Source of the DNA: an uncultured Gammaproteobacteria bacterium
GTDB taxonomy: Bacteria > Pseudomonadota > Gammaproteobacteria > Eutrophobiales > Eutrophobiaceae
Reading direction: 5' to 3'
DNA: 64,000 nucleotides
Assembly (NCBI GenBank): GCA_958295485.1
Contig: OY282354.1
Coordinates: 744,001-808,000 of the forward strand
Shown here one piece after another: positions 54,001 to 63,487 of this stretch (the stretch's first letter is position 1; every line of letters starts with the position of its first letter). The notes below the pieces were generated by a model. The model was not told the origin of the DNA. It made no database searches and saw only the letters and a list, made by a program, of their open reading frames with translations. Made by a program: the position numbers and the translations under genes.

Positions 54001-57000
54001 TAGTGGTAGCCCTGAGCAACGCGGCGAACGCGACCATCGGCGCGGCGACGAACACGACCATCGGCGCAGCGACGGGAACCGGCACAATCATCGACGATGA
54101 CTTCGACCTGACGCCGAGCTTCGATTCTATGACCATCCCGGCCCAGTCCTGGACCCAGAACCGGGCGATCCCGGTCTTGACACTGCCGGCGGCCACGGGC
54201 GGCGACGGCGCGCTGACCTACACGCTGACGCCGGCGCTACCCAACGGGCTGAGCTTCGATGCGGCCACGCGGGAATTATCGGGCACGCCGACGACGGCGC
54301 TGGCGGCGACCGAATACACCCTGACGGCCACGGACGCGGACGGGGATACGACGTCGCTGAGTTTCACTATCGAGGTAACCGGCCCGATTGTAATATCGAT
54401 TACGGACGGCCAAGCGGTGGAGGGCGAGCCCGTCGAGTTCGGGATCACGCTGTCCAGGCCCGTGCCGGAAGCCGGGACGCTGATGGTGGTTTATCGGATA
54501 ACTGACGGCACGGCCCTGGCGCATACCGACTACACGCCGCCCGCAGGTCAGCGAGGAGAGTTCACGATTGCGGCAGGACAGCGCGAGGCGGCGATCGTCA
54601 TTCAGACGACAGCCGACGACCTGGTGGAAGACGAGGAGACATTCACGGTGACGCTGGTCAGCGCCCGTAATGCGGAGTTGGGCGATGCCGAGGCGATGGG
54701 CCGGATTATCGATGACGACCTGGCGTCCCTGCGCGGCGAGACGTTGCAATGGTCTCTGGCGGCGTTCGGGCGGACGGTGGCGACGGATGCGGTGGACGTC
54801 ATCGGCCAACGCTTCCGTCCCGGCGGCCCGCCGCGCCCGCCACGCGCCGGGTTGCCGCCCCCGCCGCCGCGAAACGGCACCGGCGCGCCCGCCGCAACAC
54901 GCACCGGCGGGACGGATACGCTGTCGCGGACCGGCAACGCCGCCCCCGCCGCAGGCAACGCCCCGGCTGGCGCGCGCGGCGGCACAGACTGGACGACCGA
55001 CGCAAGCAACGTCATAGCTGGCGCGGCCCGGACGACCGGCGCGAGCAACGCCGCGCCCGGCACGGCCCGGACGACCGGCGCGGGCAACGTCACGACCGAC
55101 GCGGGCCGGGCCACCGGTGCGGTTAGCGGCGCGGCTGATGCGGGCCGGGCCACCGGCGCGGTTAGCGGCGCGGCTGATGCGGGCCGGGCCACCGGTGCGG
55201 TTAGCGGCGCGGCTGATGCGGGCCGGGCCACTGGTGCGGTTAGCGGCGCGGCTGCTACGGGCCGGGCCACTGGTGCGGTTAGCGGCGCGGCTGATGCGGG
55301 CCGGGCCACTGGTGCGGTTAGCGGCGCGGCTGATGCGGACCGGGCCACTGGTGCGGTTAGCGGCGCGGCTGATGCGGCCTGGACGACCGGCGCGGCCAAC
55401 GATGCGGCTGGTGCGGACTGGAACACCGGCGCGGCCAACGATGCGGCCTGGACGACCGGCGCAGGCAACGACGCGGCTGGTGCGGATTGGACGACCGGCG
55501 CGGCCAACGATGCGGCCTGGACGACCGGCGCGAGCAACGATGCGGCTGGCGCGGCCTGGACGACCGGCGCAGGCAACGCTACGGCTGATGCGGCTTGGAC
55601 GACCGGCGCGGGCAACGACGTGACTGGCGCGGCCCGGACGACCGGCGCGGGCAACGACGAGGCTGATGCGGCCCGGACGACCGGCGCGGGCAACGACGTG
55701 ACTGGCGCGGCCCGGACGACCGGCGCGGGCAACGACGAGGCTGATGCGGCCCGGACGACCGGCGCGGGCAACGACGAGGCTGATGCGGCCTGGGCCACCG
55801 GCGCGGGCAACGACGAGGCTGATGCGGCCCGGACGACCGGCACGGGCAACGACGTGACTGGCGCGGCCTGGGCCACCGGTGCGGGCAACGACACGACTGG
55901 TGCGGGCAACGCGGCGGCTGATGCGGCCCGGACGACCGGTGCGGGCAACGCTGCGGCTGCCGCGGCCTGGACGACCGGCGCGGGCAACGACGTGACTGGC
56001 GCGGCCCGGACGACCGGCACGGGCAACGACGAGGCTGATGCGGCCTGGACGACCGGTGCGGGCAACGACATGACTGGCGCGGCCCGGACGACCGGTGCGG
56101 GCAACGCTACGGCTGGCGCGGCCTGGACGACCGGTGCGGGCAACGCTACGGCTGGTGCGGCCTGGACGACCGGTGCGGGCAACGCTACGGCTGGTGCGGC
56201 CTGGACGACCGGCGCAAGCAACGTCACGGCTGCCGCGGCCTGGACGACCGGCGCGGGCAACGCCCCGGCTGATGCGGCCTGGACGACCGGCGTGGGCAAC
56301 GACTTGGCTGGCGCCGCCTGGACGACCGGCGCCGGCAACGATGCGGCTGACGCCGCCTGGACCACCGGTGCGAACAGTGGCGCGGCTGGTGCGAATCGGG
56401 CCACTGACGCGACCGGCGCGGGCTGGACGACGGGCGCGTGGCGGAACTTTTTCCTGGAGAGTCACGGCAGCGTGGAATTGCCCGGCGGTTTTTCCGGCCC
56501 TGAGCGTGAACCGCAGGGCGAATTCCTGTCCCAGTTTGCCTTTGAGAAGCGCCTTGACGCGCCGGACGAGGATAGCGCTGATGGTAAGGATAGCGCTGAC
56601 GGTACTGATGGCGCCGACGGTGAGAATGACGCCGATGGTGAGAATGGCGCGAAGGGTCGGGAGTGGACAGTATGGGGCCGGGGTTCGCGGAGCCAGTTCA
56701 GTGGCCAGTCCGGGGCGGGAATAACGTTGGATGGGGAGGTGAACACGGGTTACCTGGGCGCGGACGTGCGGCTGGTTGAGCATGACTTGTTGCTGGGCGT
56801 GGCGTTATCGCACAGCATAGGGAAACTGGACTATCAGGCGGCGGCGGCCGGGTTGGACGAGGGGCGGGTGGACTTGGACTTGAGCAGCGTCCTGCCCTAT
56901 GGTCACTGGCAGTTGAACGAGCGGGTGTCCCTGTGGGGATTGCTGGGCATTGGTTGGGGGAAGGCGACTTTGACGGACGAGTTCGGGCGGGTGACGACGG

Positions 57001-57806: not shown

Positions 57807-57864
57807 GGTGTGAGGGTCAAGCCCCCTGGCCCGTCAATCAAGTGTAGTGCATCGCCCTTGTCAG

Positions 57865-57881
57865 CGCTTCTTTTGGAAGCG
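57865..57881. other. Small hairpin downstream of the giant gene
   Basis: A perfect 6-bp stem (cgcttc / gaagcg) with a 5-base loop lies 59 bases after the stop codon. It lacks a following T-run, so it is not a standard intrinsic terminator. I see no better terminator between 57807 and cassette 1. Confidence 0.3.
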
Positions 57882-57961
57882 ATATTCCCATCAGCATGGC
57901 AGGCGATCTCGTCAGGTTATTACGAAAGTTATAACCAGGTATAGTGCGTGTTCCGGTGAAG

Positions 57962-57999
57962 GTGAACAGTGTTCGGTTATAACCGGAATCAGTGTTCAC
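57962..57999. repeat. 38-bp palindrome at left end of cassette 1
   Basis: Outer arms gtgaaca and tgttcac flank an inner palindrome centred on cggttataaccg. It lies about 10 bp inside the cassette's left boundary and downstream of the minus-strand gene. There is no T-run on either strand. It could be an element end, a protein-binding site or a transcript-end hairpin. Confidence 0.8.
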
Positions 58000-58123
58000 A
58001 TTCGACCGGATTTCGCATATGGCGGTGTCTGACTATGCCGCCAATTCGGGCTACCGAAAGCGGCGCGGGCGCAGTACAGGCGGTATACGCGGCTTGTAAA
58101 AAACCCTTAGTGGGAGACCGGCT

Positions 58124-58696
58124 TCAAGAGAATAAAAACTTGCCGACGCCAAGGCCGACGCCAAGAATGAAAAGCGCAGTGGCGAACAGCATGGCGCCAA
58201 GCTTGATGGTCATACTCAACTCCAATGCCTTGAGCTTGCCATCTACCGACTCGTCCAGCGCCTTGAACTTGCCCTCTACCGACTCGTCCAGCGCCTTGAA
58301 CTCGGCGCGCACTGCTTTGAACTCACCCTTTACCGACTCGTCCAGCGCCTTGATCTCGCCACGCACTGCTTTGAACTCGCCCTTTACCGACTCGTCCAGC
58401 ACATTGATCTTGCCCTGTACCGACTCGTCCAGCGCCTTGAACTTGCCCTCTATCGAATCGTCCAGCGCCTTGAACTCGGCGCGCACTGCTTTGAACTCGC
58501 CCTTTACCGACTCGTCCAGCACATTGATCTTGCCGTGTACCGACTCGTCCGACACTTTGAGGTCGGCTTTTGTCGCTACGCTTTCATTGACGGCTTTGCT
58601 GATAGTCTTCACCATTGCTTCTGCCTGTGTGTCGTCGAACCCGACCCTTTCCAGGGTTTTCGCGGCGGCGAGTGTGTCAAATGTTACTGATTCCAT
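58124..58696 (-). CDS. Coiled-coil protein with C-terminal membrane anchor, DUF1640/CCDC90-like, copy 1
   Basis: 190 residues. Residues 1-46 (MESVTFDTLAAAKTLERVGF ... DDTQAEAMVKTI ... ATKADL) match the head pattern of DUF1640/CCDC90-type proteins. Residues about 48-160 are a coiled coil built from 11-residue units (LDESVKGEFKA) mixed with 7-residue units (VRAEFKA). Residues about 164-188 form one hydrophobic segment ending GVGLGVGKFLFS, a likely tail anchor. The start is set by GAGGAAAG about 10 nt before the ATG. Compared with copies 2 and 3 it has extra hendecads and a 12-bp duplication adding GVGL in the membrane segment. Some bacterial DUF1640 genes lie in phage-like or accessory DNA; the cellular role is not established. 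Expression as a single gene is likely. Confidence 0.8.
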   Translation of the reverse strand: MESVTFDTLAAAKTLERVGFDDTQAEAMVKTISKAVNESVATKADLKVSDESVHGKINVLDESVKGEFKAVRAEFKALDDSIEGKFKALDESVQGKINVLDESVKGEFKAVRGEIKALDESVKGEFKAVRAEFKALDESVEGKFKALDESVDGKLKALELSMTIKLGAMLFATALFILGVGLGVGKFLFS

Positions 58697-59029
58697 GATG
58701 ATCTTTCCTCAAATTACTGTTGATGGTGAGAAAGCTGCCGGCGCCCATCAGGGCTCAGCCCGGCTTGCTCACTCATTTCCTATGAAATGCCGTGTCTGGC
58801 GACGCAAGCATTATTTCACCCACACTCACGACCGGCGAGACAACGGCGTATCGCACTAGGGAGTATACTACAAACCAATTGAAATTTCATAACTGCGACT
58901 TCTCAATCGGCGGCGTCCGGGTCACCCGGTACCCGGACACGTTAAGGGCGTCCCAGGGGAAGCCGGCCAACACCCTGTGACTAACGAGACCATCAACTCG
59001 GACGTATCATTGATGCCCCCTCCCTTGAA

Positions 59030-59962
59030 TTGGACTTGAGCAGCATCCTGCCCTATGCTCACTGGGCGTTGAACGAGCGGGTGTCCTTGTGGGGGTTGCT
59101 GGGCATTGGTTGGGGGAAGGCGACTTTGACGGACGAGTTCGGGCGGGTGACGACGGACACGGAGATGCAGATGGCGGCGTTGGGCAGTCGCGGGGAGTTG
59201 GCGACGTGGCGGGGCCTGGACCTGGCGTTGAAGGGCGACGCCTTTGTAGTGAACATGGCGGGGTCGGAGCAGACTCGCGGCGCGGCGGTGACGTTGCCGG
59301 AAGTGGATGCGGATGCAAGTCGTGTGCGCCTGATACTGGAAGGCCGGCGCGCCTGGCAGCCCTCGGCGCAACAACAGTTGGAGTTGAGCCTGGAGTTTGG
59401 CGGTCGCTGGGACGGGGGCGATGCGGATACGGGCTTGGGCGCGGAGTTGGGCGGAGGGTTGGCCTACCGCCATGCGGCCTGGGGTCTGGGGATTGAGACG
59501 CGGGGCCGGTACCTGCTGGGGCATACGGAGCGGGCGTTCGAGGAATGGGGCGCGAGCGTGTCGGTGGCATTGGATCCGGGCGTGGAGGGGATTGGCCCGT
59601 CGTTGACCTTGGCGCCGATTTGGGGCGAGGCCTCGAGCGGGGTGGAGAACCTGTGGCAGGAAGAGCGGTTGTTGGGCGCCAGCCTGGGCAGTCAACCGTC
59701 CCCGGATGAGCGCGGCGGCCTGCGCCCAAGCCGGTTACAGATGAAATTGGGTTACGGCTTTGAGACCCGCGCGCGACGGTTGCTGAAGCTGTACAGCACT
59801 ATGGAGGAGGACGGTCCGGGGAGCAGGAACTGGCGTCTGGGCGGCGAGGTAACGGGCGGGTGGTTCAACTGGAGCCTGGAACTGGACCGGCGGGAGAATT
59901 GGAGCGGGTCACCTGAGCATGGCATCTTGCTGCAGTTCGGCAACGGGAGAAGTGAAAGGTAA
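59030..59962 (+). pseudogene. Headless duplicate of the autotransporter barrel
   Basis: From about 59027 the sequence matches 56875-57806 of the giant gene, including the stop codon. The frame is intact for 311 residues, with 12 amino-acid differences counted by eye (for example SVLPYGHWQ versus SILPYAHWA). It lacks the first barrel strands, linker, passenger and signal peptide, and begins abruptly at the right end of cassette 1. The in-frame sequence upstream reaches a TAA within about 15 codons and has no ATG, so a functional product is unlikely. It could serve as a recombination donor for the end of the giant gene. Confidence 0.85.
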
Positions 59963-59963
59963 A

Positions 59964-60107
59964 AAGTGTGAAGGGGCAGGTCAGAAGGCAGGCAGGTGGT
60001 TCACTTGGAGTCTGGAGCTGGACCGCCAGGAGAATTGGAGTGGGTCGCCTGAGCACGGCATCTTGCTGAAGCTCGGCAAAAGCGTGAAGTGTGAAGGGGG
60101 CAGGTCA
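59964..60107. repeat. Direct repeat aagtgtgaagggg(g)caggtca bracketing a third barrel tail
   Basis: The 20-21 nt sequence occurs at 59964-59983 and 60087-60107. Between the two copies lies the third barrel-tail fragment. The right copy abuts the IS3-like remnant and on the minus strand begins TGACCTGCCCCC, which is plausible as an IS3-family end. It may be the trace of an insertion or of a barrel-tail duplication. Confidence 0.6.
59992..60090 (+). pseudogene. Third fragment: last ~30 codons of the barrel
   Basis: Encodes WFTWSLELDRQENWSGSPEH followed by GILLKLGK, clearly the final strands of the barrel (WFNWSLELDRRENWSGSPEH GILLQFGN in the giant gene). It is more diverged than the 59030-59962 copy and has lost the original stop codon. 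It is too short to function. Confidence 0.8.
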
Positions 60108-60285
60108 TACCTTGCCAGGCAACTTTCCGCATTACCAGCGCCTCGAATTCTTCGGGGGCTCAGGTACCCCAAGTACGAATGTAGCTGCTAACTGTTGTAA
60201 ACATTTCCATGTAACCAATCACGTCCTGTTCGGCCCTGTCACAGGTGTGGTACAGCCGGTGATGCGAGGCATTATGCGCTGAGCT
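60100..60285 (-). pseudogene. Degenerate IS3-family transposase (OrfB) C-terminus
   Basis: Reading the minus strand and correcting two frameshifts gives RAEQDVIGYMEMF, then YNS-stop-QLHSYLGYLSP, then EEFEALVMRKVAWQG. This is the end of the IS3-family DDE integrase domain (usual pattern: YIExFYNxxRxHSxLGYxSPxEFE). A base is missing after MEMF, an in-frame TAG follows YNS, and one extra C lies after LSP. The catalytic DDE region is absent. The fragment is cut off on its N-terminal side near the left end of cassette 2. Confidence 0.65.
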
Positions 60286-60323
60286 GGAACAAGCCATTGA
60301 ACAGCGTATTCCTCCGGTGAAGA

Positions 60324-60359
60324 TGAACACTGTTCGGTTATAACCGGGATCAGTGTTCA
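60324..60359. repeat. Palindrome at left end of cassette 2
   Basis: Arms tgaacactg and cagtgttca flank ttcggttataaccggga. The outer arms pair better here than in copy 1 (full cactg/cagtg complement), while the inner part is slightly degraded. Confidence 0.8.
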
Positions 60360-60484
60360 CATTCGACCGGATTTCGCATGTGGCGGTGTCTGACTATGCC
60401 GCCAATTCGGGCTACCGAAAGCGGCGCGGGCGCAGTACAGGCGGTATACGCGGCTTGTAAAAAACCCTTAGTGGAAGACCGGCT

Positions 60485-60925
60485 TCAAGAGAATAAAAAC
60501 TTGCCGACGCCAAGAATGAAAAGCGCAGTGGCGAACTGCATGGCGCCAAGCTTGATGGTCATACTCAACTCCAGCGCCTTGAGCTTGCCATCTACCGACT
60601 CGTCCAGCGCCTTGAGCTTGCCATCTACCGACTCGTCCAGCGCCTTGAACTCGGCACGCACTGCTTTGAACTCTCCCTTTACCGACTCGTCCAGCACCTT
60701 GATCTTGCCCTTTACCGACTCGTCCAACACTTTGAGGTCACCACGCACTGCTTTGAACTCTCCCTTTACCGACTCGTCCAATATTTTGAGGTCGGCTTTT
60801 GTCGCTACGCTTTCATTGACGGCTTTGCTGATAGTCTTCACCATTGCTTCTGCCTGTGTGTCGTCGAACCCGACTCTTTCCAGGGTTTTCGCGGCGGCGA
60901 GTGTGTCAAATGTTACTGATTCCAT
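60485..60925 (-). CDS. Coiled-coil protein with C-terminal membrane anchor, DUF1640/CCDC90-like, copy 2
   Basis: 146 residues when started at the ATG at 60925. AAGGAG lies 8 nt before that ATG. A GTG three codons earlier is also open but overlaps the ribosome-binding site, so I rejected it. The head and the membrane tail are nearly identical to copies 1 and 3. The coiled coil is the shortest of the three, with fewer LDESVxGxxKx units. The membrane segment is LGAMQFATALFILGVGKF. Length differences are whole 11- or 7-residue units, so repeat number changes without breaking the frame. Confidence 0.8.
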   Translation of the reverse strand: MESVTFDTLAAAKTLERVGFDDTQAEAMVKTISKAVNESVATKADLKILDESVKGEFKAVRGDLKVLDESVKGKIKVLDESVKGEFKAVRAEFKALDESVDGKLKALDESVDGKLKALELSMTIKLGAMQFATALFILGVGKFLFS

Positions 60926-61299
60926 GATACTCACTCCTTAAATTGCTGTTGATGGTGAAAAAGCTGCCGGCGCCCATCAGGGCTCAGCCCGGCTTGCTCA
61001 CTCATTTCCTATGAAATGCCGTATCCGGCGACGCAAGCATTATTTCACCCACACTCACGACCGGCGAGACAACGGCGTATCTCACCAAGGAGTATACTAC
61101 AAACCAATTGAAATTTCATAACTGCGGACTTCTCAATCGGTGGCGCCCAGGTCACCCAGTACCCGGACACGTTAAGGGCGTCCCAGGGGAAGCCGGCCAA
61201 CACCCTGTGACTAACGAGACCATCAACTCGGACGCATCATCAATGCCCCTCCCTGAAACAGACAATTGTTGAAGCAGCATAACAAGGTTATTTAATCCG

Positions 61300-61425
61300 A
61301 TGATTGAAAGAGATTGGGAACAATGGGAGACAGAAGTCGAGGAAGATGCGGCGTCCGGCAAGCTGGACTTCCTCATGGACGAGGCAGTTGCCGAGAAAGC
61401 CCAAGAGCGACTTCAAGAACTGTAA
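61300..61425 (+). CDS. Small acidic protein, antitoxin-like (possible partner of a RelE/ParE-type toxin)
   Basis: 41 residues: MIERDWEQWETEVEEDAASG, then KLDFLMDEAVAEKAQERLQE and a final L. The pattern 'DWExWExEVExDxxSGKLDFLxxEAxxEKxxxxLxEL' resembles short antitoxin-type proteins that I recall upstream of RelE/ParE-like toxins. That is recollection of a family, not a database result. The stop TAA is followed directly by the ATG of a toxin-like frame, as in a coupled toxin-antitoxin pair. The Shine-Dalgarno match (AAGG, about 13 nt upstream) is weak. An in-frame TGA lies ten codons before the ATG, so an N-terminal truncation cannot be excluded. Confidence 0.5.
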   Translation: MIERDWEQWETEVEEDAASGKLDFLMDEAVAEKAQERLQEL

Positions 61426-61488
61426 ATGCCTGGGGCAACAAGTCGATTTTGGGCGTGCTTCGATAATCTTTCAACTGATTCCGGCTGA
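61426..61488 (+). pseudogene. Toxin-like gene start, cut off by cassette 3
   Basis: The ATG follows the preceding TAA with no gap. The frame reads MPGATSRFWACFDNLSTDSG and stops at TGA 61486-61488. The 'RFWxCFDNLS' start resembles the N-terminus of RelE/ParE-type toxins (often xxFWxxYxxLP). The stop lies in cassette 3, whose left end is at about 61481, so the cassette appears to have truncated the gene. I see no continuation of it to the right of cassette 3. Confidence 0.4.
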
Positions 61489-61490
61489 AC

Positions 61491-61528
61491 GTGAACACTT
61501 TTCGGTTATAGCCGGAATCAGTGTTCAC
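61491..61528. repeat. Palindrome at left end of cassette 3
   Basis: Arms gtgaacac and gtgttcac are fully complementary here; the inner part has one change (ttataGccgg) relative to copy 1. Confidence 0.8.
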
Positions 61529-61652
61529 ATTCGACCGGATTTCGCATGTGGCGGTGTCTGACTATGCCGCCAATTCGGGCTACTGAAAGCGGCGCGGGCG
61601 CAGTACAGGCGTTATACGCGGCTTGTAAAAAGCCCTTAGTGGAAGACCGGCT

Positions 61653-62192
61653 TCAAGAGAATAAAAACTTGCCGACGCCAAGAATGAAAAGCGCAGTGGC
61701 GAACTGCATGGCGCCAAGCTTGATGGTCATACTCAACTCCAACGCCTTGAGCTTGCCATCTACCGACTCGTCCAGCGCCTTGAACTCGGCGCGCACTGCT
61801 TTGAACTCGCCCTTTACCGACTCGTCCAGCACATTGATCTTGCCCTGTACCGACTCGTCCAGCACATTGATCTTGCCCTGTACCGACTCGTCCAGCACCT
61901 TGAGCTTGCCCTCTATCGACTCGTCCAGCGCCTTGAACTCGGCGCGCACTGCTTTGAACTCGCCCTTTACCGACTCGTCCAGCACCTTGATCTTGCCCTG
62001 TACCGACTCGTCCAGCACCTTGATCTCGCCGTGTACCGACTCGTCCAACACTTTGAGGTCGGCTTTTGTCGCTACGCTTTCATTGACGGCTTTGCTGATA
62101 GTCTTCACCATTGCTTCTGCCTGTGTGTCGTCGAACCCGACCCTTTCCAGGGTTTTCGCGGCGGCGAGTGTGTCAAATGTTACTGATTCCAT
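61653..62192 (-). CDS. Coiled-coil protein with C-terminal membrane anchor, DUF1640/CCDC90-like, copy 3
   Basis: 179 residues from the ATG at 62192, preceded by AAGGAG 8 nt upstream as in copy 2. The head is identical in sense to the other copies (MESVTFDTLAAAKTLERVGF). The coiled coil includes two successive VLDESVQGKIN units next to units of the EFKAVRAEFKA form, and the tail is LGAMQFATALFILGVGKF. It is intermediate in length between copies 1 and 2. Its 5' region (ribosome site and leader) matches copy 2 more closely than copy 1, suggesting copies 2 and 3 are the more recent pair. Confidence 0.8.
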   Translation of the reverse strand: MESVTFDTLAAAKTLERVGFDDTQAEAMVKTISKAVNESVATKADLKVLDESVHGEIKVLDESVQGKIKVLDESVKGEFKAVRAEFKALDESIEGKLKVLDESVQGKINVLDESVQGKINVLDESVKGEFKAVRAEFKALDESVDGKLKALELSMTIKLGAMQFATALFILGVGKFLFS

Positions 62193-62538
62193 GATACTCA
62201 CTCCTTAAATTGCTGTTGATGGTGAGAAAGCTGCCGGCGCCCATCAGGGCTCAGCCCGGCTTGCTCACTCATTTCCTATGAAATGCCGTGTCCGGCGACG
62301 CAAGCATTATTTCACCCACACTCACGACCGGCGAGACAACGGCGTATCGCACCAGGGAGTATACTACAAACCAATTGAAATTTCATAACTACGGACTTCT
62401 CAATCGGCGGCGCCCAGGTCACCCGGTACCCGGACACGTTAAGGGCGTCCCAGGGGAAGCCGGCCAACACCCTGTGGCTAACGAGACCATCAACTCGGAC
62501 GTATCATTGATGCCCCCTCCCTTGAACCGGTCCCGTCG

Positions 62539-63309
62539 CTAACGCGCTTGCATTCGGATGCCGCCGTCGATACGGATGCATTCCCCGTTGATGTAGTCGT
62601 TTTCGATAATGAACATTGCGAGGCGGGCGACTTCATCGGGGTTGCCTAATCTTTTGGGGTAGAGAACGGAGGCTTCCAGTGCCCGGATGACTTTTTCTTC
62701 TAATATGTTGAAAATGGGGGTGGCAATCAAACCGGGGACGATGGTATTTACCCTTATTCCCAGGGAGGCCAGGTCCCTGGCCACGGGCACGGTCATGCCG
62801 ACTATCCCGCCTTTGCTGGCGCTGTATGCCGCCTGGCCGATTTGTCCTTCGTATGCGGCGACGGAGGCCGTGTTTATGATCGCGCCCCTGCCGCCGTATT
62901 CATCGAAGGGTTCGTTTTTCGCCATTTGTTCCGCGGCTAAACGCAGCACGTTGAACGTGCCGGCCAGGTTGACCTGGATGACCTTGTTGTATAAGTCCAG
63001 CGCGTGGGGGCCGTCCCTGCCTAAAGTCTTGGCGGCGGCCGCGATGCCGGCGAAGTTGCAGCAGATGTGGATGGCATCGAATTTTGCCATGGTGGCGCTA
63101 ATGGCGTTCGCCACTGATTCTTCATCGGGAACGTCGACGCGTTGAAATATCACCCGGTCGCCCGACTGCTCGGCCAGTTTGGCGCCCAGCTCTTCATTCA
63201 AGTCGAAGATCGCGACATTAGCGCCGGCGTCTGTCAGGCGTTTGACTGTCGCCTCGCCCAACCCGGAAGCGCCGCCGGTGACTATTGCTGTTTTACCTGA
63301 AATATCCAT
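62539..63309 (-). CDS. HSD10-type short-chain dehydrogenase (3-hydroxyacyl-CoA dehydrogenase-like)
   Basis: 256 residues from the ATG at 63309, which has GGAGG 6 nt upstream. The frame is open for 30 more codons, but that extension lacks SDR character and runs into the vapC remnant. Classical SDR features: TGGASGLG at 11-18 (NAD(P) binding), NFAG at 85-88 in place of NNAG, Asn114, Ser149, Tyr162 and Lys166 (YSASK), and PG at 192-193. The tail IDGGIRMQAR is typical of the HSD17B10 / 3-hydroxyacyl-CoA dehydrogenase type-2 group. Those enzymes oxidise 3-hydroxyacyl-CoA or 2-methyl-3-hydroxybutyryl-CoA with NAD+ in fatty-acid or branched-chain amino-acid breakdown. It is cytoplasmic and looks intact. 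It starts 34 bp downstream of the vapC remnant on the same strand and may share the vapB transcript. Confidence 0.9.
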   Translation of the reverse strand: MDISGKTAIVTGGASGLGEATVKRLTDAGANVAIFDLNEELGAKLAEQSGDRVIFQRVDVPDEESVANAISATMAKFDAIHICCNFAGIAAAAKTLGRDGPHALDLYNKVIQVNLAGTFNVLRLAAEQMAKNEPFDEYGGRGAIINTASVAAYEGQIGQAAYSASKGGIVGMTVPVARDLASLGIRVNTIVPGLIATPIFNILEEKVIRALEASVLYPKRLGNPDEVARLAMFIIENDYINGECIRIDGGIRMQAR

Positions 63310-63343
63310 ACCTGACCTCCAAAGGAAATTTTGCCGCCGAAAT

Positions 63344-63487
63344 TCAAAAATCGTCCGGCAGGTTGATTGACCGCAGACCGGGATAGGCCGAGAAGCCACG
63401 GTCCAAGGTCACCCATTCACAACCGTGTTCAATCGCCAAGGCTGCGTGATGGGCGTCAGGAGTCCAGCTGCTCCTCAAGCGCCGCAT
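63344..63487 (-). pseudogene. VapC toxin remnant (C-terminal part of a PIN domain)
   Basis: A 47-codon frame overlapping the end of the vapB-like gene. It reads WTPDAHHAALAIEHGCEW followed by VTLDRGFSAYPGLR and ends LPDDF. This is the C-terminal third of VapC-type PIN domains (pattern: DAHxAALAIExGCExVTxDxxFxxxPGLR). About two thirds of the toxin, including the first acidic residues of the active site, is missing. An ATG at 63485-63487 opens the frame, but it lies inside the repeated DNA, so this is the fusion point of a deletion and not a natural start. Confidence 0.75.

Follow-up and report, generated by a model that had tools for sequence, protein, structure and literature searches.

A truncated barrel copy downstream of a giant gene: a probable displaced 3′ end in a family of barrels that exchange short tracts

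The 3′ end of a gene of more than 63 kb is duplicated in the genome analysed here. The gene itself ends with a complete barrel domain, and a second, truncated copy of that barrel lies downstream, the two copies being followed by different sequences. Comparison with the other barrels of the genome suggests that the partial copy is probably the giant gene's own 3′ end, displaced and probably silent. Short tracts have been exchanged among the barrels of this genome, with mosaic descent between loci, and the relationship between the two copies has to be read against this background.

The giant gene, its partial copy and the barrel family

The window, a stretch of 64,000 nucleotides (C1:744001-808000; coordinates without the contig prefix are window positions), belongs to a genome of 3.74 Mb in six contigs. 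The giant open frame (C1:738387-801806, 21,139 codons) ends with a C-terminal barrel and stop codon at 56448-57806 on the plus strand, the 452-residue barrel region occupying 56448-57803. It is followed by a plus-strand sequence (57802-57943) that is ~70% identical overall to C1:723435-723622, by cassette 1 (57951-59029, minus strand), and by the partial barrel (59030-59962, plus strand), a frame of 310 codons (59030-59959, stop at 59960-59962) co-oriented with the giant gene. Cassette 1, a repeated unit, is bounded on one side by a palindromic repeat and carries a CCDC90-like gene (PF07798; ORF 58124-58696) on the minus strand. Beyond the partial barrel lie a third barrel tail fragment (59991-60079, plus strand), which spans 89 bp and is 86.5% identical to both other tails, and two more minus-strand cassettes with CCDC90-like genes, namely, cassette 2 (60313-61254, ORF 60485-60934) and cassette 3 (61479-62526, ORF 61653-62201), the latter adjoining an SDR gene (62539-63399). 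Thus, an N-terminally truncated barrel is found downstream of the full gene, in the same orientation, with CCDC90-like cassettes 1-3 interspersed.

Compared with positions 56874-57803 of the giant gene, the partial copy shows 95.7% nucleotide and 96.1% amino-acid identity, with no indel and no internal stop; the length of the match and its E-values (1504 bits for the partial versus the giant copy) exclude chance resemblance. Overall, 12 residues differ, and the final 64 aligned residues are identical. The partial copy starts at residue 143 of the giant's barrel, residues 1-142 and the passenger being absent. This point falls within strand 4 of the structural model described below, so that strands 1-3 and the beginning of strand 4 are predicted to be missing; with more than three predicted strands absent, a working barrel would not be expected from the partial copy. 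No Shine-Dalgarno-like motif was found at the nominal TTG start (59030), the first in-frame ATG is at 59165, with none across the first 45 codons, and inspection of the partial frame by eye revealed no signal peptide. The initial annotation, which described a frame-intact partial barrel of about 96% identity without a start, together with a third tail fragment, both downstream of the giant gene, was accurate as to the two copies and essentially right as to the start.

Sequence searches with the giant's barrel against Pfam, NCBIfam, and PDB gave no confident match, and the autotransporter beta-domain profile PF03797 was absent for the window's barrel up to an E-value of 5. This profile is matched by 14 of the 35 aligned homologs (best E-value, 1.5e-17), the homologs being about 23-35% identical to the window's barrel. 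An AlphaFold2 model built from these 35 diverse homologs is a beta-barrel (mean pLDDT 72.9, pTM 0.69); it replaced a first model, based on close paralogs alone, which was discarded given its pLDDT of 25.7. The best structural match of the model is the autotransporter beta domain of BrkA (Z 15.6), with other outer-membrane barrels within 1. The model resembles the beta domains of BrkA, EspP, and NalP, whereas the window's barrel sequence itself lacks a match to PF03797. The giant protein is thus predicted to consist of a long passenger followed by a C-terminal barrel with an outer-membrane fold, one that other outer-membrane barrels share.

Eleven full or nearly full barrels, including that of the giant, are present in the genome, and each ends a large passenger gene. 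The ten others, named here by kilobase position (for example, c1657 for C1:1657430), are all on C1, with passenger open frames of about 2,070 to 15,550 codons. Across the eleven, the barrels are roughly 80-98% identical in amino-acid sequence and the frames measure about 2,070-21,139 codons. The barrel at C1:2565003 (within C1:2557000-2576900) runs into a stretch of N, and its end is unreadable. The partial copy is the only long barrel copy without a passenger; a short extra tail lies at C1:3546887, downstream of another giant, and closely spaced family members lie downstream of other giants (c1583 then c1590, c1657 then c1664, c3523 then c3507). Several barrel pairs located hundreds of kilobases apart are 95-96% identical, and one pair reaches 98.5%. 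Given that distant barrels are equally alike, 96% identity alone does not identify a recent duplicate. Accordingly, of the earlier suggestion that the partial copy is a recent duplicate, the duplication of the 3′ end stands, whereas the degree of identity is not exceptional among barrel pairs.

No alternative version of the locus is present in this assembly, and no orthologous locus was detected among the genomes searched; barrels in same-genus genomes are just 31-38% identical. Scans of a genome collection for barrel relatives, and of viral contigs for the junction and for the barrel, yielded none. A genome from another family of the class (G082) contains 42 barrel matches in 3.2 Mb, with open frames as long as 10,469 codons. 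At L110:1512-3148 (G218:C11), three barrel tails without a passenger, of which one is inverted, lie amid short palindromic repeats, and similar barrel tails are found at the contig ends of G218.

The giant gene is flanked by two CCDC90-like arrays, one upstream (C1:731740-736871) and one in the window (57951-62526), which are inverted relative to each other and up to 96% identical over 347 bp. A palindromic repeat (GTGAACACTGTTCGGTTATAACCGGGATCAGTGTTCAC) marks one end of each cassette in the window (57971-58017, 60332-60378, and 61500-61546), and its relatives are scattered elsewhere in the genome on both strands. The sequences flanking cassette 2 (60250-60310 and 61304-61422) match C1:721517-721577 and C1:721736-721854, which are separated by 158 bp in that region, the layout that insertion of the cassette into a copy of the C1:721517-721854 sequence would produce. 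At its 5′ end, upstream of the window (C1:737476-738790), the giant frame lacks the signal peptide present in c1590, c1657, c1893, and others, and the region contains tandem repeats as well as homopolymer tracts (~18 G, 20 C, and 15 G). The leader upstream of the giant is in a different frame, so it might be fused to the giant frame or not depending on the length of these tracts, as in phase variation; alternatively, the homopolymers may contain long-read errors.

Exchange of tracts among the barrels

Recombination among the barrels was detected with a PHI-like test, whether the giant and partial copies were included or left out (p=0.0002-0.0003), and when the alignment is split at column 1158, each of the two barrel segments rejects the tree of the other (AU p=8.6e-8 and 8.1e-6). 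The giant and partial copies differ at 40 sites, and at 28 of these both alleles also occur in other barrels of the genome; of the remaining differences, 7 are private to the partial copy and 5 are private to the giant. We consider an assembly error unlikely, given that most of the differences are alleles of other family members. The shared-allele differences are clustered (p=0.002 for runs, p=0.009 for the longest agreeing run). The two copies are 98-99% identical in three blocks (59104-59316, 59465-59611, and 59726-59959), with divergent tracts, all on the plus strand, before and between them. In the first of these tracts (59030-59103), where 6 of 74 sites differ, the giant is nearest to c3507 and the partial copy to c1657; in the second (59317-59464; 14 of 148 sites), each of the two is nearer to c1657 than to the other; and in the third (59612-59725), the giant is nearest to c1657 and the partial copy to c1590/c3507. 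The last block, the tail tract (59726-59959, plus strand), is 98.3% identical between giant and partial, against at most 89% for all other barrels, and contains 7 of the 8 alleles that are exclusive to these two; outside the tail tract, the giant is 94.8% identical to the partial copy and 95.0% identical to c1657.

The PHI-like and run tests are our own scripts rather than published programs, and the tract borders and the split at column 1158 were chosen after the differences had been seen, the PHI-like and clustering tests being independent of these choices. A run test for the partial copy and c3507 (p=0.001) loses significance once the 55 pairs are corrected for, and we do not rely on it. 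The near-identical blocks of giant and partial, observed in one genome only, fit shared descent as well as they fit exchange.

Substitutions, flanks and the origin of the partial copy

Taken by itself, the overall dN/dS between giant and partial (0.15) suggests constraint. We rejected this value as a sign of purifying selection on the partial copy, because it derives mostly from alleles common to other barrels (28 of the 40 differences), which have already been filtered in the family. The comparison of synonymous and nonsynonymous changes, proposed at the outset as a check, was applied to the private changes. In the partial copy, 3 codons are altered, through 4 non-synonymous sites, and 3 changes are silent, a neutral-like ratio of 3:3 in codons (p=0.41) with no detectable constraint; the private changes of the giant, 0 altered and 5 silent, depart from the neutral expectation (p=0.0017). 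The direct contrast between the two sets is not significant (p=0.08), so that relaxed constraint on the partial copy is suggested rather than proven; power is low with private changes numbering 7 and 5 only. Nor is the intact frame of the partial copy a sign of selection, given that the probability of no stop arising among 7 changes is 0.74.

The sequences that follow the copies have different affinities. The match of the giant's 3′ flank to C1:723435-723622 opens at GGTAA, with the stop codon included, and attains a local score of 75, compared with at most 15 for any family member. The DNA after the stop of the partial copy (TAAAAAGTGTGAAG) resembles the flanks of c3507, c3523, and c3550, and that after the third tail (GTGAAGTGTGAAGGGGGCAGGTCA) is similar to it. 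In the tree of the tail tract, the branch of the partial copy is near zero and that of the giant is 0.017. Furthermore, the homology of cassette 1 ends exactly where the partial barrel begins, with no passenger remnant at this point, and cassettes 1 and 3 end at an equivalent point, which in cassette 3 adjoins the SDR gene. We propose that a new 3′ end of the barrel, together with an antitoxin-like fragment and cassette 1, came to lie upstream of the older one through tandem duplication or through an insertion that involved duplication; the older end would thereby have been cut off from passenger, start, and signal peptide. The partial copy would then be silent and devoid of a dedicated role while remaining, as all barrels of the genome, a substrate for short-tract homologous exchange, and could as such passively give or receive tracts.

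Outside the tail tract, however, an independent family member deprived of its passenger would look similar. The partial copy could accordingly be what is left of a second complete member, stripped of its passenger, whose tail was later homogenised to that of the giant, an origin that we regard as unlikely but retain because other giants are closely trailed by a second member (the three pairs listed above). This origin also agrees with the family-like 3′ flank of the partial copy and with its identity to the giant outside the tail tract, which is matched by that of c1657. However, the 98-99% identity of the tail tract and the two inner blocks would require three separate exchanges, and the break coincides exactly with the end of the cassette 1 homology, with no trace of a passenger. 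Expression of the partial copy as a small, independently functional outer-membrane protein, to which the 310-codon open frame and the overall dN/dS might point, appears highly improbable, considering the lack of a convincing start, Shine-Dalgarno-like motif or signal peptide, the missing strands, the neutral-like private changes, and an intact frame that is expected by chance.

The initial annotation further envisaged the copy as a donor that could, by recombination, supply the giant gene with a renewed or altered C-terminus. A dedicated donor module of this kind would be comparable to tpsC downstream of tpsA. The architecture fits such a role, the copy being N-terminally truncated, downstream, in frame, and collinear, with other ORFs interspersed; the three blocks of 98-99% identity between the divergent tracts may have arisen by exchange, a tail fragment (C1:3546887) lies downstream of another giant as well, and clustered orphan tails occur in another genome of the class. 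Moreover, because the copies are collinear and share a frame, a single crossover would yield an intact hybrid and delete cassette 1, as had been anticipated. The claim holds insofar as recombination among the barrels of the genome is evident from the PHI-like and AU tests; these do not single out the partial copy as the donor of the giant, given that the divergent tracts carry alleles of other barrels and the rest of the family would be an equally good partner. The capacity to vary the C-terminus is weak as well, as exchange would alter at most 12 residues, mostly between states already present in other barrels. The locus offers a single long spare with neutral-like private changes, and no hybrid junction was seen in the one genome of the species. 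Hence we consider a dedicated donor quite improbable. Were the spare a true donor, it would allow a gene of more than 63 kb to have its end repaired, loss of the anchor rendering the whole giant protein useless. The still broader possibility, that the giant, as an autotransporter-like adhesin, keeps a silent 3′ module that regularly recombines with it and with the other barrels, so that the anchor is repaired or varied while the CCDC90-like gene in between changes place or disappears, seems very unlikely. Displacement of the giant's own 3′ end thus remains our preferred explanation of the partial copy.

Relationship to known recombining surface-protein genes

In Neisseria meningitidis, truncated tpsC cassettes lie downstream of tpsA together with intervening ORFs, and 3′ recombination is possible and can delete the intervening DNA; such recombination has been found but is rare in isolates, and the tpsC cassettes encode entirely different C-terminal domains, with the IORFs giving immunity (PMC3848433). 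The locus described here likewise combines a large gene for a secreted protein with downstream copies that lack the N-terminal part, and small ORFs lie among them. Unlike tpsC, however, the spare is a nearly identical barrel (96.1% in amino acids) rather than a different domain; the gene in between is of the CCDC90-like kind; and the giant protein carries a built-in barrel in place of a TpsB partner. In the pilE/pilS system of Neisseria, silent partial copies support high-frequency pilin variation, helped by G4 and Sma/Cla elements (PMC4023411). Similar to pilS, the partial barrel is probably not expressed and is a potential donor for segmental exchange, but the part copied here is a membrane anchor rather than pilin.

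The bab and hom genes of Helicobacter pylori have a conserved C-terminal part, with the rest divergent, and undergo 3′ concerted evolution via gene conversion; the copies are full genes at fixed loci, and chimeras are evident in population data (PMC4552749, PMC3960876). Mosaic descent by exchange between loci is found here too, although in one genome, among eleven barrels on large passengers plus a truncated copy. Given that the barrels of these very large surface proteins swap tracts chromosome-wide, the similarity of two anchors is a poor guide to how long ago a duplicate arose. Short-tract swapping as a process has precedents in other bacteria, and the barrel family of this genome can be viewed alongside these systems.
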